In this document: piece by piece, positions 3,101 to 52,572 of the stretch
How the letters are laid out: the number at the start of each line of letters is the position of its first letter
Position numbering within the stretch: position 1 is the first letter of the stretch
Origin: Branchiostoma lanceolatum
Taxonomy: Eukaryota; Chordata; Leptocardii; Amphioxiformes; Branchiostomatidae
Direction of reading: 5' to 3'
NCBI RefSeq assembly: GCF_035083965.1
Contig: NC_089729.1
Coordinates: 16,170,964-16,234,963, forward strand
DNA: 64,000 bases
The notes under the pieces: generated by a model
Databases searched by the model: none
What the model was told of the DNA's origin: nothing
Seen by the model: only the letters and a program-made list of their open reading frames with translations
Made by a program: the position numbers and the translations under genes

Positions 3101-5662
3101 AAGCCACTCCGCAGGTGCAGACCATCGCAGTTCTGGGACACCACATGTTTCACCTGCCATGGCAAGAAACAGCCGTAAGACAAATATTTCAATATCACAG
3201 TCACAAACACAATCTTACAATGGACTGAATGGACAACTTGAAAACTGTTTAAAGCCTGCATTGAAATTTAAAAGAATGTCAACATTTATTTATTTATCGA
3301 GATTTACCACAATTGTGGAAGGATTGACATAACAGGAGACAATTAATCTCCAAGCAGATCAATAGGTTGCGAAGACCATATCAAACTAGCAGAAGAAGTA
3401 TATTCCAAGCAGATCTATAGGTTGCGAAGACCGTATCAAACTGGCAGAAGAAGTATGTTTTGCAACCTTGGATTGCTATACAAGCTCCTTCTTCCAGTTG
3501 GATACAGTCTTTGCAATTTCCATTGGGCCTGCCTGGAGGCTAGGAGACAATCATCTTTTTCAAGATGTCAACCTGGAACCTGACTGTAAGGGTTGAACCA
3601 CTCAAACCGTGATGGACCCCAGTTCTTTTTGATAAGTGTGGTGGGTTCTTTATCATGCTCGAGGTGTGACTCTCCTCAAACACGGGACCTCCAGCCTTAC
3701 GTCCCATCCGAAAGGACGTCCCTAACTGATGCTAGACACTCATTCTTACCTGAGCTGAGTGAGGAAATAGAAAAGTCTACTCACATAACCTTCCTGGTGT
3801 AGCCTGGCCAGCGCCATGTGAGTTACAGTAGGCTGAGCATCAGTTAGACTCCTGGTTCTAAAACAAAGAAATGTAGACCTAACTCAGGAACATATGACAT
3901 GTACATTGTAGAAACATGTTGTAGTATACGTTGATGAACGAACAACATTTAGTTACTGTACTGAAACAACAGTAGCTAATTATCTTGTATTAGCATACAA
4001 CCTTGTCTTGAATTAATCTTCTTTTGAAAACTTCGTAAAGACATGCTAAATTGTCTTAACCTCATTAACATATCTATTCAGAGTTTTGGTATAAAACCTC
4101 AGGTTCTCCAGTCCTATCCTTAGTAACTGACGAAATAATAGCAAAATATCACCTTTCTAAAATTTTCTGCTGTCTTGGCCAAATGGAATTCCAGATTTGT
4201 ATGGCAACATTTTTGTCATTTCATAACGTTAGGACAACTGCATAGACATTCTGGTAATATGTTATAATAACAGAACATGCAATATTGAATAGGATGAGCA
4301 CATACTCTACTGGTCTCCCCTGCTGTAACAGTGTCCACACACCGTTGGGTCCCCTGTAGTCAGGGATAGAGGCAGCCTGGAAAGAGGAAGTAAGGTTTAC
4401 CCATCAGAGAGCAGTACTCTATGACATATTAATCGTTAACTAACTTACTGCATAGGATGACTAACTAAGGGACTGTACGATATTTACTGGGTCAAAATTT
4501 TTCTCCTAGGCCCTCCCCCCCAGACGACCGGACCGGTAAATATCGTACAGTCCCTAACTAGCTTGCTACTTAACTAACTAGTTAACTCTGCCAGTGTACA
4601 AATGTATATTCCAAAATGTCTTGACTGGTGAATAGATATGATCAGCCTTACTTTACAGGTTAACTTACCAGTCAACTAGATAATTAACTAACTAAAGATA
4701 TCAAAACATTGCTCCAGTGAAGGCTACCTGTTGCCTTATCTGCATGTAGCGGTGGCCAGCTTACACATCTTACTTAGCCGTGGCGACTAACGAAGGGAGT
4801 TTTTGCTTGATATTAACGTTACATATACTACCAAGCAAAAACTCCCTTCGTTAGTCGCCACGGCTAACATCTTACTGTACAGGTTAACTAACTAGTTAAG
4901 TGATAACTAACCGTGCTGATGCCTGCTCCAGTGTACACTACCAGGTGCCTGGCCTGTAGTATAGCTGTGGCCAGCTCACAGGACTTCCTATACAGAACTT
5001 CGGGTGGGTCTTCCACCTGCCATAATAATGATAATTAAAAAAAAAAAAGATGCATCACAAAATATGAATACATTCTAGTATTATTGACTTAAAATTATGC
5101 CCTGTGTTGACTGATGTTGAAAATACAAGTTTTTGGAGATCGATGAGTGCACTACTGAATGGATATGGACCTCCTTTAGTTGCTCTTTCAGTTTCTCTCT
5201 CCGGCGAGCTCTCTTCTGCATGTCAGCAACGACGTCTGGCGACTGTTGTAAAATCTGCACCTCTTCCTCGGTTCTGACTTCCGCTGGTTTCTTCAGAATT
5301 TCAGAGATCTGGAGCAGAATAACAACAGAAATTAGTCTTTATTGCTTGACTTTATCGGTAAATTTGTACATGAGGCTGGTTGGGAGGTTAATAAGCAGCG
5401 TCTGCGCTTACACAACGTAAAATTCAGCAGCAGAACGTGGGTTGTTTCCAGGGGGTGCAACATGTCATACTCGAAACTGCACTCGTTTTTCGACAAATCT
5501 TACGAATCAACCGACAATAAAAACATTTCAACAATTTCAGAAGTATCCTCGAACCTTTTTCACCCGTGCACGAGTCTCCGCCTTCACGAGAAGCTGGCAT
5601 TTCTGGGCAATCTTCCGAGCTTCCCTGGAGCTTGTCTCTTCCGAACCCTGGGGTTCCGCCAT
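191..5662 (-). CDS. SIRT7: SIRT7-type NAD-dependent protein deacylase, 9 coding exons, 3' end outside window
   Basis: Minus-strand gene with coding exons 5662-5555, 5308-5171, 5016-4912, 4376-4306, 3857-3785, 3153-3055, 1584-1348, 908-788 and 257-191; every junction has GT/AG and matching phase, giving about 339 residues. The start is the ATG at 5662 ([12 protein letters not shown]). Visible signatures are the NAD-binding YTGAGIST at the end of exon 3, [12 protein letters not shown] in exon 4, the catalytic-His block [18 protein letters not shown] in exon 6, a four-cysteine zinc site (CAEC and CHSC) in exon 7, IVHFGER, CLGSSLK, and [11 protein letters not shown] in exon 8. The basic N-terminal segment [14 protein letters not shown] and these blocks fit SIRT7 better than other sirtuins. 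In vertebrates SIRT7 is a nucleolar/chromatin H3K18 deacetylase promoting rRNA transcription; that role is by homology. The last visible exon ends IPVYK at donor 190-185, so the basic C-terminal tail lies to the left. The exon 2 donor (GTCCAT) is weak. Confidence 0.93.
340..660 (-). mobile_element. tRNA-derived SINE copy, antisense, in SIRT7 intron
   Basis: The reverse complement shares the body of the better copy at 23735-24185: the 'actcttctcgataagtgt' / 'gggttctttTACGTGC' block and a tRNA-like head with a B-box-type 'ggttcaatcc' and a 'tggcgcaag' A-box-like end near 580-650. It lies in the intron between SIRT7 exons 8 and 9. The 3' tail end is poorly preserved. Confidence 0.6.
2716..2990 (+). 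repeat. Dispersed repeat family starting 'atctccatgaaaaatggaga'
   Basis: Near-identical to 18376-18650, and related to 16268-16740, 25600-25860 and 44290-44830. It begins with a short hairpin (atctccat/atggagat) and a TGTCTGTCTGT run. It continues with 'actcaagaacctcttgat', 'gatatttggtatgt' and 'ctgcagcagaacttc'. No coding capacity was seen. It lies in the SIRT7 intron between exons 6 and 7. Confidence 0.7.
3281..3770 (-). mobile_element. Antisense SINE copy, split by a MITE
   Basis: The tail end (3281-3343, 'tttatttattta' then 'ggaaggattgacataaca') and the body (3543-3770, 'tttttcaagatgtc' ... 'acgtcccatccgaaag') match the reverse complement of the SINE at 23735-24185. The two halves are separated by a 199-bp insertion (3344-3542) flanked by a 9-bp duplication. 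Confidence 0.7.
3344..3542. mobile_element. MITE, 9-bp target-site duplication, TIR 'taatctccaagcagatc'
   Basis: The insert starts taatctccaagcagatc and ends with a diverged inverted copy (cattgggcctgcctggaggcta). It is flanked on both sides by ggagacaat (3335-3343 and 3543-3551). It contains an internal partial duplication of 'ggttgcgaagaccgtatc'. The same family is at 18743-18860, also with a 9-bp duplication; single ends occur near 2250, 9127, 13997 and 19661. Confidence 0.8.
4468..4555. mobile_element. Short palindromic MITE in SIRT7 intron
   Basis: Inverted arms of about 20 bp (agggactgtacgatatttac and its complement) surround a loop containing a C-run. Both sides carry the flank aacta. 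It lies between SIRT7 exons 3 and 4. Confidence 0.6.
4775..4866. mobile_element. 92-bp perfect-hairpin MITE with 10-bp target duplication
   Basis: Two 35-bp arms (4775-4809 and 4832-4866) are perfect reverse complements around a 22-nt loop. They are flanked by identical 10-bp sequences acatcttact (4765-4774 and 4867-4876). It lies in the SIRT7 intron between exons 3 and 4. Confidence 0.85.
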
Positions 5663-5982: not shown

Positions 5983-6130
5983 GGAGAGTACGTTGACTGA
6001 TGGTAATGATCCATAGACAGTAGAAGCTGTGCCACCATAAAGAGTGTTTAGACATTGAGAATTCCACCAAAGACTGCATACATATTTAGTCTGAAGTTGT
6101 AGAGTAGGTTAGTTTCCTACTATCTTTAAC

Positions 6131-7017
6131 TTGCCACTCGCACTGCTAATATATCTTAAACCAACAAAAAAATCCTTTCAGTGTAATAACATTACTAATA
6201 GTATCATGTCAGTGTGTTCAATCCTACAGATAATACAAAACCGTGCAGCTCGCTTAGCCACAAACACTACTTTTGATGCCAGACTAGACAACCTTCACAC
6301 CCAGTTAAACTGGCAAACAGTCAAAGAAAGACTTTTCACCAGCACCATCTGTTCATTCCATAAAATTGTAAATGAGAATCAACCGAAATGTATTTTCAAA
6401 GAATTGCAAAGAATAGAATCGACGCACACACACAACACGAGACTGTCACAAAGAGGGGCGTTCACACTAGCCAAACCAAGGACTAAAGCTAAAACCAGGA
6501 CATTTGTATACAGGAGCATAAAAACATACAACACCCTACCTTCTCACATCACAGCTGGAAACGCTCGCACATTCAAAGTACACATCAAGCAATTGAGTAA
6601 TGGAAAGAACAAGCACATGCGTCTTGACACATGGTGGTAATTTTTGTATATGATTAGTATATTGAAGTTATTATATTATGTTATCATTATGATTACCTTT
6701 GTTTATATTTATGTACAGTTCACTCAATTATGTTGAACAATTTTTGGTATTAGTTCTGGGTTTCCTTATATACTATTATCTATACAATGATTCCGTTTTT
6801 TATGTTGACCTCTGACCACTCCGCTCATTTTTAAGTTCATCATATTTGATTTTGTATGATTTTCTATCTAACAATTGTTTTCGTTCTTCCTGTATTTGAT
6901 TTAATTGTATTGTTATTGTTATTGTATTGATAAAATTGTATTTAATTAGGCGGACTCCAGGAAGATTAGTGTATAAATTGTTGTACACTAATGGAGATCT
7001 TAATAAAACAAACAAAC
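6131..7017 (+). mobile_element. 5'-truncated LINE (L2/CR1-like), reverse transcriptase C-terminus plus 3' end
   Basis: An open frame of about 150 codons ending at 6640 contains IQNRAARLATNTTF, LNWQTVKERLFTS, FTLAKPRTKAKTRTFVYRS and IKTYNTLPSHI. This is the typical tail of non-LTR retrotransposon ORF2 downstream of the polymerase domain. It is followed by a roughly 370-bp T-rich 3' region ending 'ggagatcttaataaaac' and an (AAAC)n-like tail. No endonuclease or catalytic YxDD region is present, so the copy is a dead fragment. Confidence 0.75.
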
Positions 7018-7480: not shown

Positions 7481-7551
7481 GCATCGGTGGTTCAGTGGTA
7501 GAATTCTCGCCTGCCACGCGGGAGGCCCGGGTTCGATTCCCGGCCGATGCA
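7481..7551 (+). tRNA. tRNA-Gly (anticodon GCC)
   Basis: A full cloverleaf is visible: acceptor stem GCATCGG/CCGATGC, D arm with GGTTCAGTGGTAGA (A box), anticodon stem CTCGC/GCGGG with loop CTGCCAC (anticodon GCC at 7513-7515), and a T arm with GGTTCGATTCC (B box). No intron. An A plus TTTT (7557-7560) follows closely and would serve as the polymerase III terminator. All stems pair, so this looks functional rather than SINE-derived. Confidence 0.95.
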
Positions 7552-9688: not shown

Positions 9689-12600
9689 ATGAATATTTTG
9701 GTATCTGGATTTTTAGTAGTATTGTGTTTCAGAGCAGTCCAGGCTATGGTGGTTAGATATTCAACAAGTAAGCTGAAGCGTTTTTGTTACCCCTACATAT
9801 TTCGTAGACTACGCGACAGAGCTTTGTTCCATGTGTTGTTGTTGTTTTTTTCTGCTTTTATTTTCTTTGTTTGTTTGTTTGATTGTTCCTTGGCTAGACC
9901 TTTACATCTTGATAACGGTAGCAAACCACGAGATAGCTGACGTCCAACGATTTCCTTCTTTTCGATCAGATCTCCATGAATTCAGACGTTGTATTTTCAC
10001 CTTTTTTATAAGACATAATTATACATATAACGTTACACGGATTCTAAGTATTTGAAAACCGGTTGGGCAATTCGGTCAGTTAATCCAAGGAGGTTATATA
10101 GTCTATATAACCTCCTTGGTTAATCATAGTAGACATGTGCTGTCGTACCAATGTTACCGTGTTTTACACAGTTGACATGTTCACCTGGTGTTCTCTACCC
10201 ACCGATGTCGCGCCCAGGGTTCACCTGGCCGGATTCATCCGGTTCGAGTACTGGCCGTCAGTCAACTGTCAAGTCAGAGTAAGTCGAACACAAAGTAAAA
10301 CACAAAACTTCCACGATATACAACTTTATATTGGAATATGAAACTGTTGACTTATGCCGCGTTTGCTGACTAATCTGCAGCATACCACAGTTTGTACCAT
10401 AATGTTGTCTCACATTGTGAACCTCCTTGTTCTATGCTAACGTTACATATAGCCAAGGCCGTGAAAAAAAATTGTTGTCGGTTTCAGGTTACCCGACAGA
10501 CCTAGCTATGCTAACGTTACATAGCTAAGGCCGAGAAAAAAAATTGTTGTCGGTTTCAGGTTACCCGACCGACCTAGCAAAAACCTGCCTGATGATAACC
10601 TTTTTGGTCGACAGCTGGCAAGGGACAAAAAAAAATTCTGATTGATGAAAACGTTTTAGAATCCTTTTGAAACAGAAAAGGTTATAAGACCACACTCACT
10701 AAACCCAAGTACTAGTGCTTGTATGATGTGTATCTGTATGATAAATATGCGATGTTGAAAATACCAGTCGCCTGATGCATTTCAGTTTTACGTTGTTAAA
10801 CTGTATTGGTTGGATGATCACTTCAGCTTAGCAAAGCAATATTGGGGCCAAAAAACGGAAATGAAAAAAATGCTGAAATCTTTATGGTCGTATTTTTGCA
10901 TCATACACGTTGCTATACATTGTGATAGTGTTGGCTTAACTAATCATGTATAGAAATTACTAAATAAATTGACTTTCAAAATCCGATTTTTCGGACCCTA
11001 ATATTGCTTGGGTTTCCTTTAAGTCTTAGATCCTAGATCAACAACACAGTATTTCAAGCGTCTATATTCCCACAAAGTGCTGATATTCGCTTGTCAACAC
11101 AATCTCTGACGTTGGTAGGGTAATTTCCGCCCTTTTTGGAAATTCAAGGGTCGATATGTCAGTACGTCACCAAAGCTATGCTTACGTAAGTACGTCACAT
11201 AACATAACAAAAGTGCCGATATTTCCTGCCAACATCAGACATTGTGTTGGTAGGGGAATACCGGAGTTTTGTGGGAATATCGGATGTCTGACGTTGGCAT
11301 GGGAATTTCCACACTTCTTTTGGGCATTCTACATGCAAAGGTCGGATGACTATGTTAGTACGTTACCAGAGCTTGTCAGTACGTCACATGACAAAAGTGC
11401 CGATATTCCCCTTAAAAAACAATCATCGTCCTCGTTTCAGTTTTCATATTGGCATAACCAGTTTCCTCCTAAATCCTAAGCTCTAATTAGTACGAAAATT
11501 TTCTAGTTGTACGTCTCTAACATAGGGAGGAATAGCAGGCAAAGACATGCATTTATCAAGAAATTTAGAATGTAAGAATGATCCTGTCAGCAGTAAAAAA
11601 AATGGTACTGTTGACAGAAAAAATCCTGTCAGCAGTAGACAAATTTGCACTGTTGACAGGATGATCCTTTAAATAATTTTGTGTACAGACAAACGGGAAG
11701 AAGTTTTGTTTTTAATCCCCAGATTATCAGCGAGCTCGAAAACAGCCGTATTTCTCTGAGATTCCTGGACTTGAACATCGAGTCCACCAACAGCAGACGG
11801 TGCATCGACTCTCTCTCTATTTACGACGGCACCTTCCAGGAGGGCGTGGTCCTGGCGACGGTTTGCGGCAGTGACGTCCCGCCTGAAGTTCTGTCAAGTG
11901 GGCAGCAGTTGGTGTTGGTGATGACGTCAGATAACAGTGGGAACGGCAGTTTTAGAATTCTTTACAGCGTTTTTGTGGACTCAGTGGCAGGTATGTATTT
12001 ATTTATTAAACTTCACAGAATGAAATCTGGGAGGTGTTGGCAACAGGATCGATGCATCCTTTACAAGGCCAACGCCTCCAGAGTACATTTAAAAACAAAT
12101 AAAGAATCATCACTAATATCACAATACATTCAAGAAATTACAATAATAACAATAATAATGATAACAAAAAATGACAATAATGGTGGTAATAACCAAAATA
12201 TTGAAAAAGGACGGTTTGACTATCTTATACAGCATTAACAGGACATATGTTGTTGATGTCAAAGTGTGTTGTCAGAAGAGATGTGTAATGTTCTGAAACG
12301 GATTGCTTAAAGCGTTTGGTTGAAGAGTTCGGAATTAGCCTGAGGTATCTAATCTCTGTTGGGAGGGCATTCCATATTCGGACAATTCTTGAGAAAAAAG
12401 AGTGCTTGAAGGTCGCTGTATGACATTTTCTTGGGGTCAATTTGGCCAGAGAGAATGCTCTTAGGAAAGGGTGTGGAAAGGATAAGTAATCGTTGACGTC
12501 TATTTCGTAATAACCTAAGGATCATTTAAAAATGAAAACGAAATCTAGCATTTCACGTCTATGTAGCTACAAACGCAGCGCTAGCGCTACTATATCTCGT

Positions 12601-13639
12601 GCAATACCGAATGTCGTCCACTTTGTGTTTTGTTCAGTCACTAACTGGAAAGACAGTGGATACCGTTTCCAAATTCTATTCAGTTGCTTGACGAATTGTT
12701 ACCTTGCGTACTGCCATGTACATGAAGTATTTTTCCATGTGAAGTTATCGTCGCTTTTTCAAAATTCCCAGATCATTTGTTCCTCAGTATGTCATCAACT
12801 TTTCCATCATATATTTCCAGGTTCTTGTCCAACGAATGGTAACTACAGCGCATGCGCTGATGGCAGGTGCATGCCGGGAGACCTGGTGAACGATGGGCAC
12901 GAGAATTGCCCGGATGGAGAAGACGAGGATGGCTCGGGTGGGTGTTTAGAATTGCGCATGCGTTTAAAGGTCAAGACCTGTAAAAGTCCTAGTTTCAAAG
13001 ACTGAAAGTATTTTTGAAGGCCGATGAAGGTTCACATATTAACTAAATCAGTCGTTTTGTTCTTTTTTGGCTGGCAATTATTGAACACGGCTTGAAATTA
13101 TGTTGTAATGCCTTACAGCTTTGCTAGAAGAGTCCGCTTCCAACGGGCAAACTGACGGCACAAATGGTAAGCTTGCGATGTAATCTTTATTTGCGTTTTT
13201 ATGCCAAGATGCTGTATGTTAAAATTTTAATTCTACAGCAACAAAAAAGCAGTTCTGAACAATGCTAGCGTTATTTGTATGCTGATTTTGAATTACTGAA
13301 TTATAAAATCATTTAACACAGTAGTTTTGCAAAGTACGTTAATTCATTTTCCCGCAGCTGTCAATTTTTTTCTTCACAGATGACGACGAACAAACGAACG
13401 AAGACCCGAACAATACCGAAGACCCGAACACCATGGGAAAATTCGTGTTCCTTCTCAGCGGCGGCGACATCGCGGGGATATGTATTGGGGGACTAATCAC
13501 TATTGTTTTCGTGGGGGTCGCCTGCAAACAATGTAACAAACCGGGGAGGGTTTCCTCAGAAAGGATGGGAGGGACGGGGCTACACGCCGTTAACGTCGGA
13601 GAGGAGGTAGGGGAAAATACTCTGTTGGAAACAGTATAG
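9689..13639 (+). CDS. Single-pass membrane protein: signal peptide - CUB - LDLa-like - TM (gene A)
   Basis: Six exons join in phase: 9689-9767, 10172-10278, 11723-11990, 12821-12937, 13119-13166 and 13380-13639, encoding 292 residues. Residues 1-19 form a signal peptide (MNILVSGFLVVLCFRAVQA). Residues about 32-152 are a CUB domain (AGFIRFEYW, VNCQVRI, LRFLDLNIE, CIDSLSIYDG, LATVCG). The next exon is an LDL-receptor class A module (SCPTNGNYSACADGRC ... NCPDGEDEDG) lacking canonical Cys4 and Cys6. An acidic Asn-rich stalk (TNEDPNNTEDPN) precedes the TM helix (IAGICIGGLITIVFVGVA) and a tail of about 40 residues ending LLETV. The order recalls NETO-type co-receptors, which have two CUB domains, so orthology is not claimed. 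The ligand is unknown. Gene B is a tandem paralogue. Exon 1 is the least certain; phase and signal peptide support it. Confidence 0.8.
10080..10124. repeat. Palindrome 'ccaaggaggttatatag'
   Basis: ccaaggaggttatatag is followed almost immediately by its reverse complement, forming a 45-bp near-perfect hairpin. It lies in gene A's first intron, about 50 bp before exon 2. Confidence 0.75.
10830..11025. mobile_element. Deletion derivative of the 8757-9125 MITE family
   Basis: It shares the termini (aaagcaatat ... gcttgggtttccttt) and internal blocks with the longer copy but lacks its centre. It lies in gene A's second intron. Confidence 0.65.
11578..11670. repeat. Repeated 'atcctgtcagcag' inverted units
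   Basis: Two 'atcctgtcagcagta' units alternate with inverted partners 'actgttgacag'. The segment ends 'gacaggatgatcc', matching the palindromic element at 8615-8665. It lies just before the CUB exon at 11723. Confidence 0.6.
12010..12520 (-). mobile_element. Antisense LINE 3' fragment in gene A intron
   Basis: The minus frame 12440-12225 contains HSFFSRIVRIWNALPTEIRY and STKRFKQSVSEHY, typical of the 'R..RIWN.LP..I......FK' ORF2 C-terminus of non-LTR elements. Its 3' end (12026-12085 on plus, 'ggtgttggcaac ... ctttacaagg') is shared with 33040-33110. It is fully contained in the intron between the CUB and LDLa exons. Confidence 0.65.
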
Positions 13640-14052
13640 CTTTCGACAACAGAAGGCACCTGGTACGATACAGTACACTGGGTACCATCCTTGTGACAGT
13701 TTCAGTCTGGCAGACTGACTATAACTTATATATGGAAAAAAACAATGATTTGTCAACGTATGTAATAGACAAAATCTCCCATTGGGATTGATATGTATAT
13801 ATATATATATATGATGAACGCATTCTAAGCGTATATTTTAGCTTACTTCTAATAGAATAATTTGCAGTACTGCTATCTGTAAATATAAATACATGTAACA
13901 ACATACTAGTTCAAAATTATTGCTAGATATTTGGCAAGGCATGAGGTACACAGGTGCTCAACTCGACTCATGAAGACGAGCATATGACAAGCTGACGTCA
14001 GACATCTGCTTGGAGGTTAGTCAAGATGTGAACCACGTCTGTGTCCATCCGT
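13640..14052. other. 3' region of gene A, no gene
   Basis: No canonical AATAAA was seen close to the stop codon; AT-rich variants occur near 13850-13885 (aatagaataat, aatataaat). An (AT)n run lies at 13796-13812. A MITE end (catctgcttggaggtta) is at 13997-14016. Confidence 0.4.
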
Positions 14053-14334
14053 ATTTTAAGCCCCTGTCACAAAAAGCCGACCATGGCCTCCCGACCTTCT
14101 CCAGACCATGTCGTGAGCAAGGTCATCTGTGGCGGGGGTTGGTCGGTTGCCTACCGTGAGTCTATAACAGTCGCCAGCACCAGCCAAATATGAACTGTGG
14201 AAAATCAAAGTCTGGAAAGTCATCATCTGCTCGGTAGCGGTCAGCTAGAGGAGCGAACTGGAGCTAGAATAGGTTGGATTCCATGCTACTCCCAACCCAG
14301 CGAAGGTCCTGGATGCGTGACAGGGGCTTAAAAA
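14053..14334. mobile_element. MITE with TIR 'ttttaagcccctgtcac'
   Basis: ttttaagcccctgtcac at 14053-14069 is mirrored by gtgacaggggcttaaaa at 14318-14334. The internal sequence has no ORF. The TIR core cccctgtcac resembles that of the element at 21402-21630. Confidence 0.7.
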
Positions 14335-15421
14335 GTTGATTATTGTTTTCATGTTTTCGTTCATTCGTTCATTCTTGCAATCACTCATTTCTGCGTACAG
14401 TCATGAACCACTTCAAGGTTTCCAACTTTATTGCCAGCAAGTATTCTTGACTGTTCATCGACGACAACAACTCAAGAATTCCTTGAAAAGAAAGTGTTCA
14501 AAAGTCAAGATCTTGATCAGTCAAACTTATATATATATACACACATGTATTACGTACTAGCAAATATTTAAAGGTTAGATTTCCAAGTAAAATACTACAT
14601 TATACAAAATCATTCGAACAAGTGGATAAGGTCTCTACCAGGGTCAAACGATTCAGATAACATCCACTATCTTTCATCAGCGACTGGCTCATTCTCAGTC
14701 AATGATGAAAGATAATGGAAGCTATCTAAAAGGTCTAACCCTTTCAGAGACTTGATGAAGTTGTTTGGATGATTTTTTATCAAAGACCCATCTTGTAAGT
14801 TTGCAAATACAACTAGATATCCGGCTTGAATGGTCCTTGTTGACTTTTTCTAGTGTCGTTCTCACCCTAGTTAGGACACACCCTTCGCGTATCCGTGCCA
14901 GTCGGCGCTAACACGTTACAACAACAAGTAAACATCAAGTATCAACATTTCCAAAGTTTCTGTTATGTTGACACATAACACGACCTTCACACAACAGGAG
15001 TCCAGAAGGTGAGGGTCTGTAAGGGTTTTGTCGAGTGCTCTCTGAACCTTCAGCCGCCATGAAGAGCCCTTACACCATTGTTATCGACCCTGCCACCACC
15101 TGAAAGCGGGATATTGGATCCCATACCGTAACCCTAACTTCAAAGACTGTGGATCGACGCTGTCCACACCTAAATTGAAAATGGCACAGCCCACCTTGAT
15201 GAACTTTCTGCTGAACTCCCATGAGACTGGTCTACTTTACGTCAACATATAGGGGTAGTATTCTACATCAAAGGCAATTTTAGCCCCACTTGACAGGAAT
15301 GCTCTGCTGAAGTCGCTAACAGGCAGTGACCGAACAGAAAAGTAGACAGTATTCGATCATTAAAACCTGTGCGATAGACATCTTAACAGTTCGGTGAGAC
15401 GAACATTACGGTGAAGTAGCC
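14335..15421. other. Intergenic between paralogues A and B
   Basis: An imperfect inverted motif (ctttcatcagcgac / ttgatgaaagataatgg) occurs at 14680-14730. The rest is diverged sequence in which I recognise no gene. The last 60 bp before 15422 should hold the gene B 5' UTR; no TATA box is evident. Confidence 0.4.
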
Positions 15422-18400
15422 ATGGGGGAAAGGATTCGTCGTTTGCAGCGGGGATTTCACTGCGTGGTCGCGCTGTTGGCTGCCTTACTCCCGATGACGC
15501 ACGGAGAGCGTTACCAAACCTGTGAGTTATGTTATCTTAAAAAAGTCTTATCAGTTTACAGGATATGTGACTATCGCGCATCAGAAAGTTCGCCAAAGTT
15601 CATGTCTACATGTCTCGTTATCACTTGCAGGAGTTCTAGAAGTATGCAGGGGAATATATCAACTTCACCGCGTTGATTTCCCTTGGTAGGAGAATTCGGC
15701 GTCTTGCTGAAGTGATGTTTTGTCATTTGCTTTGTTTGTTTGTTTCAAACGGTTTGCCGTATATAATGACGTACATATAGTAGGATGGGAGAATTATCAT
15801 GCTATCATTAGTGAAATGCTCTGTCAAAAGACACAGAAGATATTCTTAAATCGGTAGAATCCGATTTAAAGTCTAAAACAAGCAACAAAGATTCGAATTA
15901 CATGCTATACTTTATCGACGAAAGACAGAAAGAAAGCTACGATAATGTATGCACGTTTCGGTTAAAGTATTGAAAGCAATGTTTTTTTTATTTCCCCCCA
16001 CTAAAGTTGCGATGGAATGTGGCGGTACCGTTGAACTGGGTGACATCGAGGCTGGGTATGTATCGTACTCGTACGATCCCGGACAAGACTGTACCACGAC
16101 ATTCACTGGAACATCAGGCAAGAAATTCCTGCTGCACTTCGTGACCCTTGACATGGGACCCGATGACTCCTGTGATGACCACGAGTTACGGATCTACGAT
16201 GGCGAGCAAGGTTGTTATTTCCACCATTTTGATTCAAAGAAACCATTCGTCCTTTAATAAAGTTTTTATCTCCATGAAAAAAGGTTTGTGTCACCGGATG
16301 CTTAAAGTCAGTATAACTGTAAAACATGTACATGGATTGTAATGATTTTTGGTATGTGGGTAGGTGTTGGGAGGAGAAAGGTCAATGTCGATTTTGGGCC
16401 CCCTGGCATGTGTCACTGAAACTGCAATGGCGTATTTGTTAAAATCTTTTAAGAAGAATAACTGAAGAAAGGAGTGACAGATTGTCATGTTATTTACTGT
16501 GCAGGTAGCTTAGACAGAGACATATACAATGAACTGCAAATTATGCAAATTGGACTTAATTTGCATAAGTAATGAGGAAAATCTATATTTGCAATGTTGT
16601 CCATTGCATATTGTGGGACATCTGTTAGTAGCTATTTATAGCGAAAGTGGGTCACTTCTCCTGGGCACGACAGGTGGGGGTCATACCATTGAGCGATATA
16701 GAATGGGGGGAACTGGTTTAATAAAAAACAAAGTTTCATGAAGATTTTGGGTCCTAAGACTCTTGTTCTCTTTTGTGTTTGAGCAGCAAATTACAGGTAA
16801 AAGTTGCAAAATAATTTCCTGACGGTCAGCTTCTTGGCATGGTACACGTCACGGTGCTAACAGAACGAACGAATCGAAATAAGGGACAGAATTGAAAGAA
16901 AGAATCTGAAAGATAGTGAAAGGGGACATAGGAAATATGACGGAATAAAAACAAAATGAAATGCGTTGTGTGAGTATGGTAGAATGTTGCCAAATATCAA
17001 CGATGCTTGAATCGGCATTATAAAAAAAACACTTTATGGCTAATTCGGCACAAGAAAAATGCTGTTTTTTGTAAAGCTAAAGTATAGTGTAGTGATAAGC
17101 CTGTTCATTGTTTCAACTGCGAATTTGCAGAGCGATGCATTTGAAGGCTACGGGACTTAAATGAATAGCGTCTTGACTTGTACAAAACATGGTTCAGACA
17201 AGAACTGTTTACAACAAGGGGCCTTCACGTTTGACATATTAGCCACAATGGCATGCGCAGTAGGAACCCTGAACCAGCTTATTCGTGGTTTATCAAACTA
17301 TGTACATATGATTACAGCTTCTGGTGACCTGCTGGCATCGGTATGCGGGAGCGAACAGGAAGACGTCACCGCTTCGTCTAACGTCGTGACGCTTCGGCTG
17401 ACTTCGGGCGATGACTCGGCAAGGGGCGATGTTAGGATCCAGTACACGATGTTCTACGACTCCCAAGGTATACATTTGACATGTTGTGAAAACTTTCGGA
17501 CAATGCAACAAAAGGTTTATACTAGTTCTTAGCTTATGCGTTATGATAGTTTTTAAAGCTCTTTATAACCAACTACATCTCTAACTTCGAACATTTAGTT
17601 TCCGCGTCCGGCTTAGTAAAGAAAAACTTTGAAAAATCTTTACACCATTTTTGGCCAAATATCCACAGATGATGCATGTCGGGAAAGTGAGGACTTCCGG
17701 TGTGATGACGGCAAGTGTATCCGGTCCGAGTTACAGCAGGACGGATATTGTAACTGTCCCGGTGGTGCGGACGAACCCGACGGTTGTGAAGGTAACTTCA
17801 TTTATTTTTGCTTCCTTTCTCTGCATTGTACTCATATTTACACCTTCTGAGGGAAAAAGATTTGACCGAATCGAACCACTCACTACCCCCTGGCGGATTC
17901 AATTGGCAGTGCATATCATAGTAGGACAGATTCATTCTGAAATCATAAATTGTAACAAATGTCAAGTACGTCCCAAGAATTGAAATACATCCGTCTAAAA
18001 AGATTGAAGTACTCTAAAATCTCTACACCAAATGAGTTGAGTTCAGTATGGAATTTTCCTTTTAATGAGAAACATAACAATCTTTTGACGTCATTTTTGA
18101 TTCACATTCCAGCTGGCGTGTCGGACAGCGGCGAAGCAGAGCCGGAAGGGGAACCGGAATCTGAACCAGAACCAGAACCGGAATCTGAACCGGAACCGGA
18201 ATCAGAATGGATTCCGGAACTCGGGATGACCATGTGGGCACTAACCGGAATCATCATCGGGATTGTCGCCTTCCTTATTTTCACAGGGGTTGCTGTTTAC
18301 TTCGCGATCAAGGTGATTTCAGAGGTTACAATGACTGTTGGGATAGAATGCGTCAAAGTATCACCCATCGATTAGTTATCTCCATGAAAAATTGAGATAT

Positions 18401-24709: not shown

Positions 24710-27700
24710 ATGGTGAGGCCCCGGCCTCTGGTCCTGATGTTGGCGGTGTTAGGCTGTGTGTGCGCCGCCCCAGACCTCACACACGACCCGGGCAATGCAC
24801 GAGCGCGCATTGAGACGTTGCACTTCGGGAGAACACTGCAACACCACAAGGTGGGTCATATCGCTTGATGCATTGAATGGCATGATTAACAACTTTCAGT
24901 ATGGTTACGACAGGGAGGAAAAGAATAAAGACAGAAAGGCATAAAAATGAAGGAAGGAAGGAAGGAAGAAAATGGAAGTAGAGATGGAGTAGCAATCTTT
25001 TATAACGATGTCTGTCATTTAAAATGACCACATAACCTGTCTTTTCTCATTCACTGTAAGGTGCATGCACTAAGTATATTGATATTTTCCGCTTTAGTAG
25101 CACTAGAACACTCAAAACCTGCGTCATATATGAAGATTAGACAAAACAACTAATCATATTGAGGAAAGGCTACGACAAGAGTTTTTTTTTAATTTCCTCC
25201 TATACTATATGTGTAATTTCAAATTTGTAATATTGGTCTTGAAAGACATCGAAATATGAGCAGATCAAAGTATGAGAGATATGCGGGCGAACAATTACAA
25301 GTTGTAACTAGTCCTGTAACTTGTCCCTGTGAGAATTTTCATGGTTTTTCCTTTGATCCATGCTTTGTACTACAGAATGCCTTTATAACAGCCTGATTTA
25401 ATTGCCTAATATAATCACTTTCCCAGCTGCACACTAGAAAATGGTATATGGCACAATGAAACCCCGGCTGAACATGCATAGAATTTGTAGTCTCTACCAG
25501 ACTAGACCTGATTATGTATCACATTTATTTAGTTCAGAGACGTATTCTACGCTTAAGAACCTGATAATCTAAATAGTGGCTATTGTAATATTTTGATGGT
25601 TTATAACCTTCGCCGAGAAGGTTATATTTTCGTCAGCGCTTGTGTGTATGTGTGTTTGTGTGTCCGTCTGTAAACAGTATAACTCGAGAATGCCTGAATG
25701 GGTTGTCTTCATACTTGGTATGTGGGTAGTTCTTCTTAAGACCTCAAATTGATTAGATTTTGCCCCCTCTAGTGGCTTGTTATGGTACTCCAGCAGAACT
25801 TCCGGGTTTGATATCTCGTGTTCTAGACATGCTATGGTCATTCATTTTTAAAGTACCACTGAAGGGTGGGATGTTATTGAAAAAAAACCTTTATTATCGT
25901 TTATAAACCTGTTCCTCAACCTTGATTTTTTTCAGGTAGTACCTTATAGCAAGATGATAATTTATGCAAATTGGTATGACGTCATGATTACGTCATCAAG
26001 AGTTACAAGGCCACACACATGACGATTTTTGGCGAATTTTTATTGTTATTTTGATAAAAATTCGCCAAAAATTGTCATTTCAAAATATAAACGTAGACTC
26101 GCGTAGTCCTTTATATATTACTATCATGTACATTCCTGCAAAGTAATATTGATAAACATCGAAGAACAAGCCAAGGAGAGCCTTTTTTCTAACAATGGGC
26201 GTGGCTCTTGATGACGTAATCATGACGTTATACCAATTTGCATAAATTATCATCTTGCTATAAGGTACTACCTGAAAAAAAAACAAGGTTGAGGAACGAT
26301 AATAAAGGGTTTTTTTCAATAACATCCCAAAACTCCTCAGCCACCCTTCAGCGGCAGCGGTACCTTAAGCGGCAGATAGCTCTTGAGAGGAAGAGTTAGT
26401 TGTGTTGGTTTTGGAACTGCAGGGACCGATTTCGTTTCAAACTTTGAATGGGGTTGACGGATCGTCATGATATTTGGTATGTAGATAGCTCGAGTGATGA
26501 TTAACAAGATCAAATACTAAGTATGCAAATCAGTAGCTAATTTGCGTAATCAATGAGGAAAGATTATCAATCCGTTGCACTCCTTTATTATGGCAGCACT
26601 TAGAAGTTAAGTAGACATGTGGACATGATCAGACAGAAATCATGAAAATGAGGTCCTCACTTACCTAATATATGTGGGAATGCTACAATAGCCTTCTTTG
26701 CAAATATACTTTGAACAACTTGTGTAATTTGGGTAGAGAAGATGGTCAACTGACAGATTTCATGCGAATTGGGTCCTTATTTGCATAATAGATTGAAAAC
26801 ATTTATGATATGCCACTCGAAAAGGTCAACATCAGTCGGCGAAGGTATGGGGTCGTGGACCTCTAGTTTCATTTGTTATCAGATAAAAGTCACCTTATTC
26901 TGGTGAAAACGAGATAACGCACACTCTATCTATTTTTTTCACGGGTATCATTTCTTCAACATACTAGGAAGACTTCTTTAATTCTTCTCGTGAAAAGATG
27001 GGGTTGATGGGGTGTTATCTCAAATCTTTCCACTGGAGGAAAATTTCTTGATTCTATTTCTGGTGAAAGAAGTAAATACAGGGGACGTTATTACATTTTC
27101 ACTGAATACGTTTTGCTGGTGAGATAATTCGACGAAATTTGTACTAATCCTTATCGAATATCAATGCAGTTATCACGCTTTTCCAAGACAGTAGTTTGCG
27201 GGAAGTATGATATAAAAGACAACAAAACACACTAAACGTTTCAAAAAGATAGTCATGAGTATGATTTGTATACATTTCTTTACATACACCTTTATTTTTC
27301 GTTCCTGCAAATAACCCGGCCGGGCCCCGGTCTGGAGATGTGACCCTGGCATAACCATTCATCTAGTTGCAATGTTTCCATGCGCTCCTAAGGCTAACGT
27401 GTCCGCGTGTCTATGTTCCCAGTTGATGGCAGAAAATACCATACGTTCCCAAAACGTGGCTGCCGGTGTTGACGACAAAGACACGCGTCTATCCATACTC
27501 CACTCCAACAGGTAAGTCTACTTCCGATACTCAGCAAAGAGTTGAGACATATGTTGAAAATAATATCAGGTGTTTCAACATCAGCCAGTCCACGTGGACT
27601 AGCTCTGTACGTGCTGCATGCGCACACTAAACGTGGTCCACGTGGACTGGCTCTGCGCTACCGTGACACACAATCATTTTCACGTGTTCCAATTACCAAG

Positions 27701-30700
27701 GCTCTATACTTGGAATATCGATCTCAATGGGTTATCCCCGAAAAATTTTTTTAGGCATCACTGGGGACACTAGTTGGGTTTCAAGGAATTGAAAATTGAA
27801 AACTATACCCAAACTCACACACACGTATGCACATAGCCCGAGTACCAGCCTCCGTAGTGACCGCTGGCTCAAAAGAATTCGCTTGCTAACCACCGTTGGC
27901 TCAAACAATTCGCTTGCTAACCACGTTAGCAAGCGAATTTTTTGAGCCAGCGGTCACTTCGGAGGCTGATACTCAGGCTAGTACGCACACGCATACACAC
28001 GAAGAAAGAAGCAAACAATTCCATTCTTCTGGAATGTCAAAGATTTCTTGTTCTTGTGTTCTTGTTCCAACTCTGACATTGGCTTTACATGTAAAACTGT
28101 AACAAATGCTTCTGAATATCAATCATATCTGCTATCTATTAACTGCCGGCTATAGGTACGGTGGTGACCAACGTGACCCAGATCTGCATCCAAAGCGTCC
28201 TGGATCAAGTCCATGGAACAGTGGTGACGTCAGTGGATCCACAAGAACACCACAACCATTTCAACCACCAGACTACGTCACAGAAAGCGACACGAAAGGA
28301 GCTGCACCCTTCACGGTGTGGACTCCTGGAGAGAAAGGTAAGGCCATTAGAGAGGTGCATGGTGGACAGAACCGAAATGTACAAATCAATCCGGCCCTCA
28401 CACACAGTCCCGGAACCGCCCGAAGTCACCAAAAAGATCTAAAGAACTTGTCCCCGGACTCAGAGATGTTGGAGGAAAACGTCCACCGTAGGGATATGAT
28501 GGGTAGTTCCCTACGAAAGGTCATCCTCGGACGCAGCAAGCGAAGTGCAGGTGGATTCTGGTCAGCTGCACCACGCAAATGGTCAGTTCAGGTACAGCGC
28601 CGAGATCTGATGGGAAACGCCTTGCGTAGATTCCATAAAGTCACTGAGGAAACTCGCAACAGTGGAAAACGAGATGACAAAGGTTGGGGAGTAGGGGATA
28701 TAAATATCCACCACTACAAAACACTTGATGGTTGGTACAAGATGGGAGAGTACAAGTCAAGTAGTTTCAAACATCTCGACGTAACGTCGCCCAAGGTGAC
28801 AGTGACATCCCATCTACGTCGTTTGTTCCTACAAAAGCTCCGACGAATCTCAGAACTGAATCAAAAGATTGCAGTAATGGTCAAAGATGGTGCAGTCCCA
28901 GATGTACCTTACAACGTGGACAATAACAATCGCAACAAAGTGGGAATGGAAGGGGACGAAAGTGACCAGATGAGGTTCTTCGTCGGAAGAAAACTACTTT
29001 TCGAGGACAGTAGTCAAGAAGACGAACATATAGAAGATGAGAAGCAACGGGAGGTGAAATCCGAAGAATCAACGACGGATGCACGGCGAGATATAATGGG
29101 AAACAGTCTACGAGGTACCGCTAGGGCATATAGATTCTGGAATCTAGTCAGACAGAAGGGCCAAATGGAAAAACCTATCTCAAGATTAGATACTCTAGTG
29201 CGAGATTTAGTAAGAAATTATTTCCAAAAATCTCCTACGGAAGGGAAACTTACGGATGAAGCTATAGGGAAACTCAAAGTGTTGAAAAACCAAAACACGA
29301 TGCTTAGCCTGGCAAAGGGTCAAGCAGGAAAGAAGCCTCCTCCAGAGGCTGTAAGAGCCATGGACGTCTTAGCATTAGGGCAGCAGAATGGACAGATAAA
29401 GCGAGGTGGCTTAATGGTGGGTTCCCTACAGTCAAACCTGACGAAAAAAGTTCATCGACTGTTCGTCAACAAAACGAAGCACAGCTTATTCAATACGACT
29501 GATCTCAAAGCAGATAGCAATTCAGGACATGTTCAAACAAACACCCTGGTCGACCCTGAAGAAAATCCGCACGATACTGGGAGAAACATTGAGAATAGCA
29601 ATTCAGGTGTGAAGCCTTCTGTAAGTACCACGGAAAACTCGATTGCAAGCGGTTTGAAGTCGCTCTCGGCAGAGACAAGCGTAGTACAACATCGTGACGT
29701 TATGGGAAGCTCGTTTCGACGTGTCATGTCGTCAGGCAAACGCAGTAAACAGGAAACACGAGAAGGTTCACACCCCACAAGTGACGATAGCAATTCAGGA
29801 CATGTTCAAACAAACGTCCTGGTCTACCCTGAAGAAACTCCGCACGATGCTGAGAGAAACAGTGAGAATAGCAATTCAGGCGTGAAACCTTCTGTAAGTA
29901 CGACGGAAAAATCGATTGCAAGCGGTTTGAAGTCGCTCACGGCAGAGACAAGCGTAGTGCAACATCGTGACGTTATGGGAAGCTCGTTTCGACGTGTCAT
30001 GTCGTCAGGCAAACGCAGTAAACAGGAAACACGAGAAGGTTCACACCCCACAAGTGACGTGAAAACGACGTCAGGTACACATCATCATCGGAATCCCATG
30101 ACAACAACCAACCCACACACTGCGGCTGATGCGGATCATATAACATCCGACGACGTCAACAATCAGATCAAAGGCAGCGTAAGAGTCCCTAAGCGTTCAT
30201 CAATCTACAAAGAATCTGTAGAGTCACGCAAATTAAAGCATGTTGCAAAGAAGACATTAGTAGAAAATATCTCCCTCGGGAGAAAGTCTCCAGCAACCAC
30301 AACAGCAGAAGATTACCGCAGAAATTCGTCGAAAAATACTTCGAAAGATCTCCACTCCACTAAAAGAGGATCGCCAGGAGCTTCCGTAAAAAAAGACAGC
30401 TTCCAGAAGAAAGATATACTGGGAGACTCCCTACGCCGCCTCATAAGTGCAAGAGATGGAAAGCGCGCTTGCTCATTTTCGAGTAAGGATCTAGACACTC
30501 GGGGACAAGCCAGCTCTGCCGCCATTCCAAAACCAGAAGCAACGGCAAACAGTCCTGAAAAAGCTTTTACCATTGAACGTCGATCATTCAACACGGCTGT
30601 CAAGAATGACACACTGACATCTCTCTCCACTGCACAGGTAACCGTGCCACATCACGACCATACAAGTGAAAACGCCAATGGTCAGGTTATTCCAGACAGC

Positions 30701-31849
30701 ACGGCCGACAATTCAAATGAAGAAAGCAAGTCAACAACTGCTGCACCGAAACAAACATCAAGCGATGGCGTTGTCACCAATGGAGTTGACACACTGAACA
30801 TGAAGAATAATGAAGACAAAAATGATCGAAATGTCAGTATCGACAACCCACCATTCAAGCATCGAAGAGTCAGGAGAGAAGTAGACGACTCGGTCCATTC
30901 TATCTCGCGTTATGGGAGAAGAGAAAAAGACGTACAGTCGAAGCTAACTCGTGAAATGGCCGAAGAAGGACAGAAGCACGACATCATACATGTATTTCGG
31001 AGCACCCATCATCCAGAAGGTCATCAAGCCTATGGCCATCTTACTGACGATAAAACTGTACTTCCTTTATCCACAAAAGACACAACAGACAGACACGAGG
31101 ACGTGATCGAGAACGTTCTAGAGGACCTGGCTCCCCGAGACATAATGGGGAACATCTACCGAGGCAGAAGGTCGTATGAGAACATTCAAGACCAACCACA
31201 GGTGGATAGAGCCTACCCAATAAGAGCATCTTCATCTGCAGGTTCCAAACGTCGTAACATGGGCAGTCTACGGCCAGATTTGGACATCAGGTTTGGGTCC
31301 AAAACAGGCCGGAAATACTCTAAAGTTTTCCTCCCACACGACAAGGAACCCATTAACGTTTACAACAGTGAGCAAAGAGGGAATAACAAAGGCAATGCAG
31401 GCTATACCGTAGCTTTTCTACAGGACCAGCACAGCTCACCTACCAAACGGCCGTCTCAGAATAGACAGGGGACTTTAACAAGGGGAGTCCGATCGTTCGA
31501 CAAGATCATGTTGGAGATTCGCAAGCCCCGTGACGTCCTTGGAAACATGTTTCGAAATGTGATGATAGAAATGATGTCGATTTCCAAGAGAAACGAACCG
31601 GTCTTGGACATGTCCATCACGGTTGGGATCTCCGAGGACAGTTCGGACAAAAGCGATCCAGAGGAGATGATCAAAGAAGAGCGTCCAGATTCAGTAGGGT
31701 TGCCATATGAAGACGCGATGACTTCTCCTTGGTACACTAAGGCACGTCAAAGCGGAAGGAAACAGCTGATAGAACCGGTCACTAACCAGAACACAGACGG
31801 ACCAATGACACGTCAATACGTCGTGGTAAAAGCAGCTCCATTTAATTAA
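24710..31849 (+). CDS. Multi-copy amidated neuropeptide precursor with repeated R-D-x-M-G-x-x-L-R motif (unrecognised family)
   Basis: Three exons join in phase: 24710-24850, 27423-27511 and 28156-31849, giving a 1307-residue secreted precursor. Residues 1-20 are a signal peptide (MVRPRPLVLMLAVLGCVCAA). Motif copies begin at residues about 190, 227, 389, 494 (weak), 591, 682, 830, 1072, 1111 (weak) and 1203: DMMGSSLRKVIL, DLMGNALRRFHKV, DIMGNSLRGTAR, GGLMVGSLQ, DVMGSSFRRVMSS (twice), DILGDSLRRLISARD, DIMGNIYR, NMGSLRPD and DVLGNMFRNVM. They follow RR, KK or single R; copies 2, 5, 6 and 7 end in Gly-Lys-Arg and copies 1 and 8 in Gly-Arg type sites, implying C-terminal amidation. Spacers are acidic, hydrophilic and almost Cys-free. 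The start is the ATG just after acceptor 24668. I cannot place the peptide in any known family. Secretion and processing are inferred. Confidence 0.85.
25600..26875 (+). repeat. Dispersed repeat copy interrupted by a MITE
   Basis: The 5' part (gtgtgtccgtctgtaaac, tacttggtatgtgggtag, ctccagcagaacttcc) parallels 2716-2990. The 3' part after the MITE (catgatatttggtatgt, gcgtaatcaatgaggaaa, cgaaggtatggggtcgtgg) parallels 44333-44830. The element ends in CTCTAG followed by T. Confidence 0.6.
25868..26328. mobile_element. 461-bp long-inverted-repeat MITE
   Basis: gggatgttattgaaaaaaaa at the left is matched by the inverted right end ttttttcaataacatccc. The arms run about 130-145 bp, including ctcaaccttg, ggtagtaccttatagcaag and tatgacgtcatgattacgtc. 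An inner perfect hairpin (gacgatttttggcgaat type) lies at 26023-26078. No ORF. Confidence 0.8.
27583..27672. repeat. Inverted repeat 'gccagtccacgtggact'
   Basis: gccagtccacgtggactagctct is followed by ccacgtggactggctctgcg. The cacgtg-centred palindromes form a compact inverted pair in intron 2 of the precursor gene. Confidence 0.5.
27838..27975. mobile_element. Hairpin MITE in intron 2 of the RDxMG precursor
   Basis: Arms of about 52 bp (left: ccagcctccgtagtgaccgc ... ttcgcttgctaac; right: gttagcaagcgaa ... gcggtcacttcggaggctg) are near-perfect reverse complements. Part of the left arm (ggctcaaa-aattcgcttgc) is duplicated in the loop at 27898-27920. Confidence 0.75.
29513..30058 (+). repeat. 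273-bp in-frame tandem duplication inside the precursor exon
   Basis: Units 29513-29785 and 29786-30058 begin GATAGCAATTCAGGACATG and end CACACCCCACAAGTGAC. Each is exactly 91 codons and carries one HRDVMGSSFRRVMSSGKR copy. The motif portion is identical between units; the spacer differs at a handful of codons. Confidence 0.95.
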
Positions 31850-31869: not shown

Positions 31870-32420
31870 CTTGACGTTTCATGGCAACCGTCCACCTCAA
31901 CGTGAATTTATGCCCAAAGCCTCCTGAACGCTTTCAACTACAACAGACAGATTCCCAGCTATAATCCCAGGCAGGCTAACTTACTACACACACCCAAGTA
32001 CATTACTAGATCTGGACAGCGAACATTTGCATACAGGGCTGCTACAACCTACAACAAGTTAAATCCTAGTATCAAACAAGCTTCATCAATCACCAGATCT
32101 AAACAGGCTCTGATAAACATACAAACCTCTTAACTTTTGACAGCTAGAAAGAAATTTGACCTCTGACCCTCAGTTGAATGACCTTTGTGATTTTGAGTTG
32201 TTATTGTTTTGAATTATTCTGAGTTGTTTGATTTATTACTCCTATGTTTGATCATTCCTGTTTTATGTTATATGATTGTGAATTGATTACTCATTAAGTT
32301 TATGTTAAGTTATTCCTTTTGTATCCTGATTTGTTATGATTTGTCATGTAATGTAAGGACTCCCTTGTGAATCAGTTACAATGTTAACTGAAGGGACCAT
32401 CCTAAAGATTAATAAATAAA
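31870..32420 (+). mobile_element. LINE 3' fragment immediately after the precursor stop codon
   Basis: A frame around 32005-32130 reads RSGQRTFAYRAATTYNKLNPSIKQ ending at a TAA, the LINE ORF2 C-terminus seen elsewhere in the window. The roughly 270-bp downstream region ends 'gaccatcctaaagatt' and (aataa)n at 32411, as in L2/CR1-type tails. It begins within tens of bases of the precursor stop, so it may form part of that gene's 3' UTR and supply its AATAAA. Confidence 0.7.
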
Positions 32421-44830: not shown

Positions 44831-45216
44831 TTATTTACCAACGAATGCTACTATGTACTTGTTTGTCTGCAATTCGCCTTCGTGCATTAACTTGCAATAA
44901 AGTTATTCAAATTTATTCAACTATCCATAAATCCCTTAGAAATCCCAGCGGAAGCTACTTGGTAAGACCAAATCCGAACAGGGTCATTTTGCCTTTCAGT
45001 TGCTACGTGTAGGTCTCTGAAAAGGTTAATTAAGCCCTTAAGACGGTTCCATTTGGCTTCTCATCTTTTCAGTCAATCAGATATGAAGCCGTTAAAACCA
45101 CCTTTACCGCCCACATTGAGTACGGTACCTCCTTGTTTACTAGGTCAAGCGTCATTATATATAAATATCACTAATTCACCGCCTATCGCCTTACAGTTAG
45201 AACACTATATCTTAGC

Positions 45217-45700
45217 ATGAAAGCTCATCTGAGTTGGTATGCCAATCACCGTCTTATATTGACCCTATATCATAATCTCACCTTTATCAAGAGATTTGTA
45301 CTAAAACATCGCATGAAAGCTAATCTGAGTTGGTATGCCAATCACCGTCTTATATAAACCCAACAATAATCTCACATTTATCAAGAGATTTGTACTAAAA
45401 CATCGTGACCTATTAGCCAGGTTAAAGCAGAATATCCATTTTTAAGTCATTAGAAACTTTTTGAAGTTTATGTCAAACAGACAAAGTAAAGGATCTGTTA
45501 GGACGCTCTATATCTTGGCATGAAAGCTCATCTTTGTTGGTATGCCAATCACCGTCTTGTATTAACTCTATATCATAATCTCACCTTTATCAAGAGATTT
45601 GTACTAAAACATCGTGACCTATTAGCCATTAAAGCGGGATATCCGTTTTTAAGTCATTAGAAACTTTTTGACGTTTATGTAAAACAGACAAAGTAAAGGA
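45217..45700 (+). repeat. Three diverged copies of a ~94-bp unit plus flanking duplication
   Basis: Units starting 'catgaaagctcatctgagtt' occur at about 45219, 45311 and 45519. Each ends 'gagatttgtactaaaacatc'. The following 80 bp (gtgacctattagcca ... caaagtaaaggatctgtt) is also duplicated, at 45405 and 45613. Confidence 0.8.
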
Positions 45701-46455
45701 TCTGTTTTGTTTGCTTTTAAAGTTCATTGGAAATAAGGATAAGATACTTTTTAACCAGCTCGACAGTTGGTTAAACTTTATCTTTAAATTGAGGGTTGAA
45801 TATTTTTTTCTTTTGGTATTTTCGTAAACATAGAGCAAAATATCTTATCCTTTTTAGGTCAGACAATGTTATATAAATGACGTGTTCTAAAGCATCGTGA
45901 CCTATCGGCTAAAGATTAAAGCAGGACATCAGCTCGTTCTTTACTCGTTACATTTACAACCCTCTTGATATTCATGTCAAACTGACAAATTAATGGACCA
46001 CTTTGCTTTTTAAGCAGGAAATCCACACATTACTCGGAAATCAGGATAAGCTATGTTTTACTAGGTCGACAGATATTATATAAATGGTACAAATCTATCT
46101 TTGGTATTTTTGATCAAAAGTTGAGACAAATCGTTTTGTATACCTAAGTCTATCCATCCCTATGATAAGTACTGTCCAATGAGCAGGATGTTATATTGGT
46201 TTTAGTCTCAGAAATCATGTTATGTAAAAAATAAAGTTAAGAAAATTAGAGTTACATAAGTGGTTTATCCAGCGCTAACTTTCTATGATTGTTTGCCGGA
46301 AAGGATTTGTGTATTACATGAATAGTATACATTTTTCACCCATCGTGAAGTTTCTGTGACAGTATACTTAAATACGGATCACGGATCGAATTTTGCGAGT
46401 CCAGTCCCGCTCGGGCACGGTGTGACCCGTTTCAATTATCATTTCGGAAGGAGGC
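45701..46455. other. AT-rich intergenic
   Basis: Further weak echoes of the preceding repeat ('catcgtgacctatcggct' at 45893). Nothing else recognised. Confidence 0.4.
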
Positions 46456-51940: not shown

Positions 51941-52184
51941 CATTTCCTGATTGCGACCGCGACTTGATGTTTGTGAATCGAGTAAAGCTTGGCTTGTTTG
52001 AAGTACATAATGGAGAAACATGTTGTGAACAACCATCTCAAAGAGCACAACATTGCATTACAAACTGCAACTCCGTGTGGCCCAATTATTTATATTAGAA
52101 TTAATGTTAATCTGAGGTGGTAAATTACATTATGGAACAATTAAAAGATTTGACTCACAGGAAATTTCTACTGACTCGCTCATT

Positions 52185-52572
52185 CATCTTCAGCTATCTG
52201 ATTCGATCACCGTGGACACGTGTCTTTCTGCATGCATGACGTCGGCAAAGGTTGTTGGAAGTCAATATCGACACCCGTCAGTCATCTTCAGCTATCTGAT
52301 TCGATCACTGTGGACACGTGTCTTTCTGCATGCATGATGTCGGCAAAGGTTGTTGGAAGTCGATATCGACACCCGTCAGTCATCTTCAGCTTTCTGATTC
52401 GATCACCGTGGACACGTGTCTTTCTGCATCTATGACGTTGGCAAAGGTTGTTGGAAGTCGATATCGACACCCGTCAGTCATCTTCAGCTATCTGAATCGA
52501 TCACCGTGGACACGTGTCTTTCTGCACGTATGACGCCGGCAAAGGTTGTTGGAAGTCTATATCGACACCCGT
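52185..52572 (+). repeat. 98-bp tandem repeat, four copies
   Basis: Units start at 52185, 52283, 52381 and 52479 with 'catcttcagc'. Each contains 'ggacacgtgtctttctgca' and 'ggcaaaggttgttggaagtc'. Copies differ by a few substitutions; the last is slightly short. Confidence 0.95.

Follow-up and report, generated by a model that had tools for sequence, protein, structure and literature searches.

The 64,000-nt window analysed here, the whole stretch of Branchiostoma lanceolatum DNA at positions 16,170,964 to 16,234,963 of NC_089729.1 (forward strand; coordinates below are counted from its first letter), carries two putative repeat peptide precursors about 25 kb apart. The first is encoded on the + strand by three exons between 24710 and 31849, and the second lies at 57337-58503 (+). 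A SIRT7-like gene is found on the - strand at 1264-1737, where SIRT7 (PDB chain 9gmk_K, E 2.2e-32) was the only distinct sequence matched at E <= 0.001 and Pfam SIR2 was matched with an E of 4.1e-10; further SIRT7-like sequence was recognized by eye at 5084-5338 (-). A tRNA-Gly (GCC) gene occupies 7481-7551 (+), and CUB and LDL-receptor class A exons extend over about 11600-18400 (+), with a transmembrane segment near 18226. Tandem arrays are present at 45215-45706 (periods near 96 and 207 nt) and at 52180-52572 (98 nt). Three stretches (6113-6637, 12228-12521, and 31906-32133) resemble by eye the terminal parts of LINE-type reverse transcriptases; no above-threshold Pfam match was obtained for the first of them, and the last lies directly 3′ of the stop codon of the first precursor.

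The second precursor opens with a signal-like start (MQCVGVVVLTTVLISMGAA) and contains nine copies of the type xPxxALxxGRF, one of them with DRF and one without the proline. The copies are followed by GR in seven cases, by GS in one, and by KR in one. Given their GRF-type ends and the GR after seven of them, these copies are probable RF-amide peptides. No Pfam match was obtained for this protein, and six of its peptide strings occurred in no open paper searched. When compared with the first precursor by blastp, its best E value was 2.9, indicating that the two are unrelated.

The first precursor gene, which is the subject of this analysis, is dominated by a 1,248-codon stop-to-stop open frame on the + strand (28103-31849), whereas about 6e-31 frames of at least 1,248 codons are expected in the window from base composition. 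Three exons were assembled: exon 1 (24710-24850, +; start codon, 47 codons, donor AAG/GTGGGT, phase 0), exon 2 (27423-27511, +; 29 codons plus 2 nt, donor CAG/GTAAGT, read from both sequence and translation), and the main coding exon 3 (28156-31849, +), which holds all peptide copies and the TAA stop. Joined through canonical GT/AG splice sites of compatible phase, they form an uninterrupted reading frame of exactly 1,307 codons, which reproduces the 1,307-residue, three-exon precursor that a sequence-only reading of this DNA had proposed. The 89-nt exon 2 is required in this model, since exon 1 reaches the frame of exon 3 only through it. Intron 2 also contains an imperfect inverted repeat (41 nt, with a 30-nt pair nested in it) at 27834-27980, possibly a small mobile element.

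The N-terminus encoded by exon 1 appears signal-peptide-like (MVRPRPLVLMLAVLGCVCA/APD) according to a home-made rule combining hydrophobicity with a splice donor, and it supports the proposal that the precursor is probably secreted. Both strands of the window were scanned with this home-made rule for signal-like open reading frames with an in-frame donor that agrees with the consensus at 8 or more of its 9 bases. The scan returned four starts at only two places, exon 1 and the transmembrane segment near 18.2 kb, and no signal-like open reading frame with a donor on the - strand. The same reading had described the spacer between the repeats as acidic, which is wrong: the share of D and E is 12.8% and that of K and R 14.8%. 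Cysteine occurs only at residues 16, 18, and 849. An AlphaFold prediction for exon-3 residues 1-528, made from the single sequence, had a mean pLDDT of 39.8 and was uninformative.

Eight cores in the protein fit the pattern (R/K)-D-[ILMV]-[ML]-G-[NSD]-x-[LFY]-R, at residues 189, 226, 388, 590, 681, 829, 1071, and 1202, all encoded on the + strand. Copy 1 (RDMMGSSLR, 28490-28516) is preceded by R and followed by KVILGRSKR; copies 2 (RDLMGNALR, 28601-28627) and 3 (RDIMGNSLR, 29087-29113) are likewise preceded by R, the former with NSGKR downstream and the latter running into GTAR. Copies 4 and 5 share the core RDVMGSSFR (29693-29719 and 29966-29992) and the following RVMSSGKR, while copy 6 (KDILGDSLR, 30410-30436) is followed by RLISARDGKR, copy 7 (RDIMGNIYR, 31136-31162) by GRR, and copy 8 (RDVLGNMFR, 31529-31555) by NVMIEMMSISKR. 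Two further segments located after KR, GGLMVGSLQ (29405-29431, +) and RNMGSLR (31253-31273, +), were judged by eye to be decayed copies, the first of them not being listed in the profile scan. Of the roughly ten copies originally counted, eight are clear, two of these arising from one 273-nt duplication, but the other two are decayed and were recognized by eye.

These repeats stand far above chance. The pattern [KR]D[ILMV][ML]G..[LFYI] matches the exon-3 protein 8 times, whereas 2,000 shuffles averaged 0.001 matches and never gave more than one, and the seven distinct copies score between 15.3 and 25.3 bits in leave-one-out profile searches. A six-frame scan with a related 10-column profile gave a best non-copy score of 10.3 in the window and 13.1 in the reversed-sequence control; the scores of 24.5-30.9 obtained for the copies with this profile are high by construction.

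Copies 4 and 5 reside in two tandem 273-nt units (29513-30058, +) that are 95% identical and contribute one peptide copy each. All 13 differences between the units are confined to the first 174 nt; the remaining 99 nt, including the peptide, are identical. The duplication that gave these two copies is recent, and because their synonymous sites are identical too, gene conversion accounts for the pair as well as selection does.

Comparison of the seven distinct copies revealed where conservation is confined. The nine core codons have a pN of 0.27 and a pS of 0.69, compared to 0.73 and 0.67 for the nine codons after the core and 0.66 and 0.76 for the nine codons before it, with the qualification that choosing copies by motif lowers the core pN by construction and leaves pS unaffected. 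Three core positions, the D, the G, and the last R, are invariant (pN 0), and the C-terminal extension beyond the core is not conserved. Synonymous sites appear near random, with only about nine residues seemingly held, and since these sites look randomised the copies are probably old. A low core pN amid near-random flanks and a similar pS fits selection acting on a short peptide, in line with the original proposal, and the invariant D, G, and R suggest specific recognition.

The environment of the cores was then considered for signs of processing. The residues immediately before the core D are RR, RR, RR, HR, HR, KK, PR, and PR, as expected from the earlier description of cores following RR, KK, or R. 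A dibasic site thus stands ahead of four of the eight copies (RR three times and KK once), and the other four have only a monobasic R (HR twice and PR twice). Every D[ILMV][ML]G segment of the protein (8/8) follows R or K, so the basic residue is not a product of the search pattern. Downstream, each of the four GKR sites of the protein is found no more than 25 residues past a core (0.64 such sites expected on average under the null, p 0.015), and the clustering persists when the tandem duplicate is collapsed (3/3, p 0.016), two of the four sites stemming from that one recent duplication. More generally, the exon-3 protein has 11 G[KR][KR] sites versus 2.0 in shuffles, none of 2,000 shuffles reaching 11, and 5 of the 11 are found in that same 25-residue stretch after a core (p 0.02).

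The four GKR and two GR-type ends listed in the sequence-only reading were all found, the latter two being LGRSKR and YRGRR after copies. Their description as a hallmark of amidation held in part: GKR sites do cluster after copies, but GR sites do not (2/9, p 0.42), and the C-terminal extension varies among copies. Nor is there an enrichment of dibasic sites after copies when only sites past the core are counted (8/41, mean 6.3, p 0.26); an enrichment obtained with all downstream dibasic sites (13/41, p 0.028) was rejected, since five of them are LRR, LRK, or FRR at the core's own end. Five cores continue into RR or RK, which are possible convertase sites. In three copies, the core's last R is followed by a non-basic residue (G or N). 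Since this R is retained even there, it probably belongs to the peptide itself rather than serving for cleavage alone. Amidation of some copies only is plausible, the candidate amidated products being DVMGSSFRRVMSS-amide, DILGDSLRRLISARD-amide, and, from copy 7 with its GRR, DIMGNIYR-amide.

What the sequence shows directly is an open gene model with exons of compatible phase, peptide copies that each follow a basic residue, and a constraint that stays within about nine codons. The reading that best accounts for these features, with a probability of about 0.7, is that the locus encodes a large multi-copy peptide prohormone that would be cut into about eight related signalling peptides of a family not matched in our searches. 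According to this model, the signal peptide would direct the precursor to the secretory pathway, where proprotein convertases would cleave at the basic residue that precedes every copy. About eight peptides would be released, each beginning with a D-h-[ML]-G-x-x-[LFY]-R core and continuing into a variable C-terminal extension, and carboxypeptidase trimming could be followed by partial amidation through the GKR or GR ends. The part recognised by a target would then be the conserved N-terminal octapeptide; the likeliest such target is a G-protein-coupled receptor, and the context would be neuroendocrine.

Part of the evidence presented above is also compatible with a structural or matrix protein that is secreted and for the most part disordered, in which the RDxMGxxLR repeats would serve as uncut binding or docking motifs. 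The protein is very long, its charge-hydropathy is disorder-like (mean H 0.396 versus a boundary of 0.424), half of the copies have no dibasic site in front of them, and dibasic sites beyond the core are not enriched. However, R or K before all eight D-h-[ML]-G segments together with clustered GKR sites is what a peptide precursor predicts, and constraint drops beyond the core, making an uncut matrix protein unlikely. Cleavage could also yield defence peptides or other non-signalling products, such as antimicrobial peptides, a class that includes multi-copy precursors and cationic stretches. The overall excess of K+R over D+E (205 versus 165) would suit such a role, but the conserved part itself has an invariant Asp and a low net charge, and its invariant D, G, and R suggest specific recognition, which leaves a defence precursor improbable.

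To place the putative signalling peptides, we searched for a known family. The exon-3 protein matched no family in a Pfam scan and no sequence in a PDB search, and the three PDB matches obtained with the motif profile (best E 0.13, CTPR-rv4) are attributable to chance. The profile was also scored against a comparison panel of known peptides. Of its 81 entries, five (four peptides and one placeholder) did not reach the nine residues required, which left 76. The two top scorers were GHRH (9.5 bits, shuffle p 0.009) and MCH (7.3 bits, p 0.0105), with p values that are not notable because such values are expected among 76 peptides. When the profile columns were permuted against a 48-peptide subset, the best score was equalled or beaten in 13.9% of 1,000 trials, and nothing in the panel rose above chance. 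In the main texts of the open papers searched, none of six exact peptide strings was found, and no paper contained at least two of six shorter strings. Within Pfam, PDB, the peptide panel, and the open-paper strings, no known family appears to be supported, which agrees with the sequence-only reading that the peptide is unrecognised in the scope of those searches; no homology of the repeats to a non-peptide protein family was found in Pfam or PDB.

Individual families were also weighed on their defining features. The RFamide family was ruled out, as the copies end in variable sequences and have no C-terminal RF-amide. Pedal peptide/orcokinin was represented in the panel by two members only, neither of which was in the best 15 of 76. 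GHRH, the best panel scorer, contains AIFTNSYRK, and secretin/GHRH peptides have an N-terminal H/Y-x-D motif and a conserved long helix; this family fails, since the peptides encoded here would begin at Asp and their post-core residues are not conserved. MCH contains MLGRVYR, which loosely resembles the IMGNIYR of copy 7. Nonetheless, MCH fails on its disulfide Cys pair, which one report describes as conserved in MCH-type peptides of vertebrates and invertebrate deuterostomes (PMC4772807), as none of the cores contains Cys. Another report describes the amphioxus genome as being without the MCH receptor subgroup and as having large expansions of other peptide receptors (PMC2246102).

A divergent invertebrate relative of neuropeptide B/W with retained SIRT7 linkage was considered because the SIRT7-like gene lies about 20 kb upstream of the precursor. 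NPW also holds LLMGLRR, loosely like the LMGNALRR of copy 2. One source groups NPB, PCYT2, and SIRT7 under a single human locus (PMC8850418), which provides a lead only, linkage alone being weak. Mature NPW begins with Trp according to a further source (PMC3527818), and the neuropeptide B/W family fails on this residue, as our cores begin with Asp after a basic site and have no N-terminal Trp. In addition, NPB reached only 1.8 bits in the ungapped panel comparison (shuffle p 0.09), NPW was not among the best 15 of 76, and gene order across such distant animals could easily coincide, so that this kinship is very improbable. Finally, that the gene does not work, being a chance open frame or a decaying pseudogene with the LINE-like sequence seen by eye after its stop codon (31906-32133), is scarcely credible in the face of 1,248 open codons and of core constraint alongside near-random synonymous change.

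Returning to the peptide prohormone, a more specific proposal can be offered tentatively, at somewhat below even odds: the D-h-[ML]-G-x-x-[LFY]-R peptides may constitute an undescribed signalling family, in which the N-terminal octapeptide would be the recognised part and the receptor would be among the expanded, unassigned peptide receptors that an invertebrate deuterostome possesses. If true, this would bring a further signalling peptide family to a lineage that serves in reconstructions of the neuroendocrine system of ancestral chordates, and some eight short peptides, all sharing the invariant D, G, and R, would become available as defined ligands for testing orphan receptors.

The precursor shares several traits with known multi-copy neuropeptide precursors of the pedal peptide/orcokinin and RFamide types, namely, a signal-like start, related short peptides after basic residues, variable spacers, and some amidation-type glycines. 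It differs from them in two respects. Its D-h-[ML]-G-x-x-[LFY]-R motif is conserved on the N-terminal rather than the C-terminal side of the peptide, and the precursor is unusually long, its size being very large for the multi-copy peptide class.
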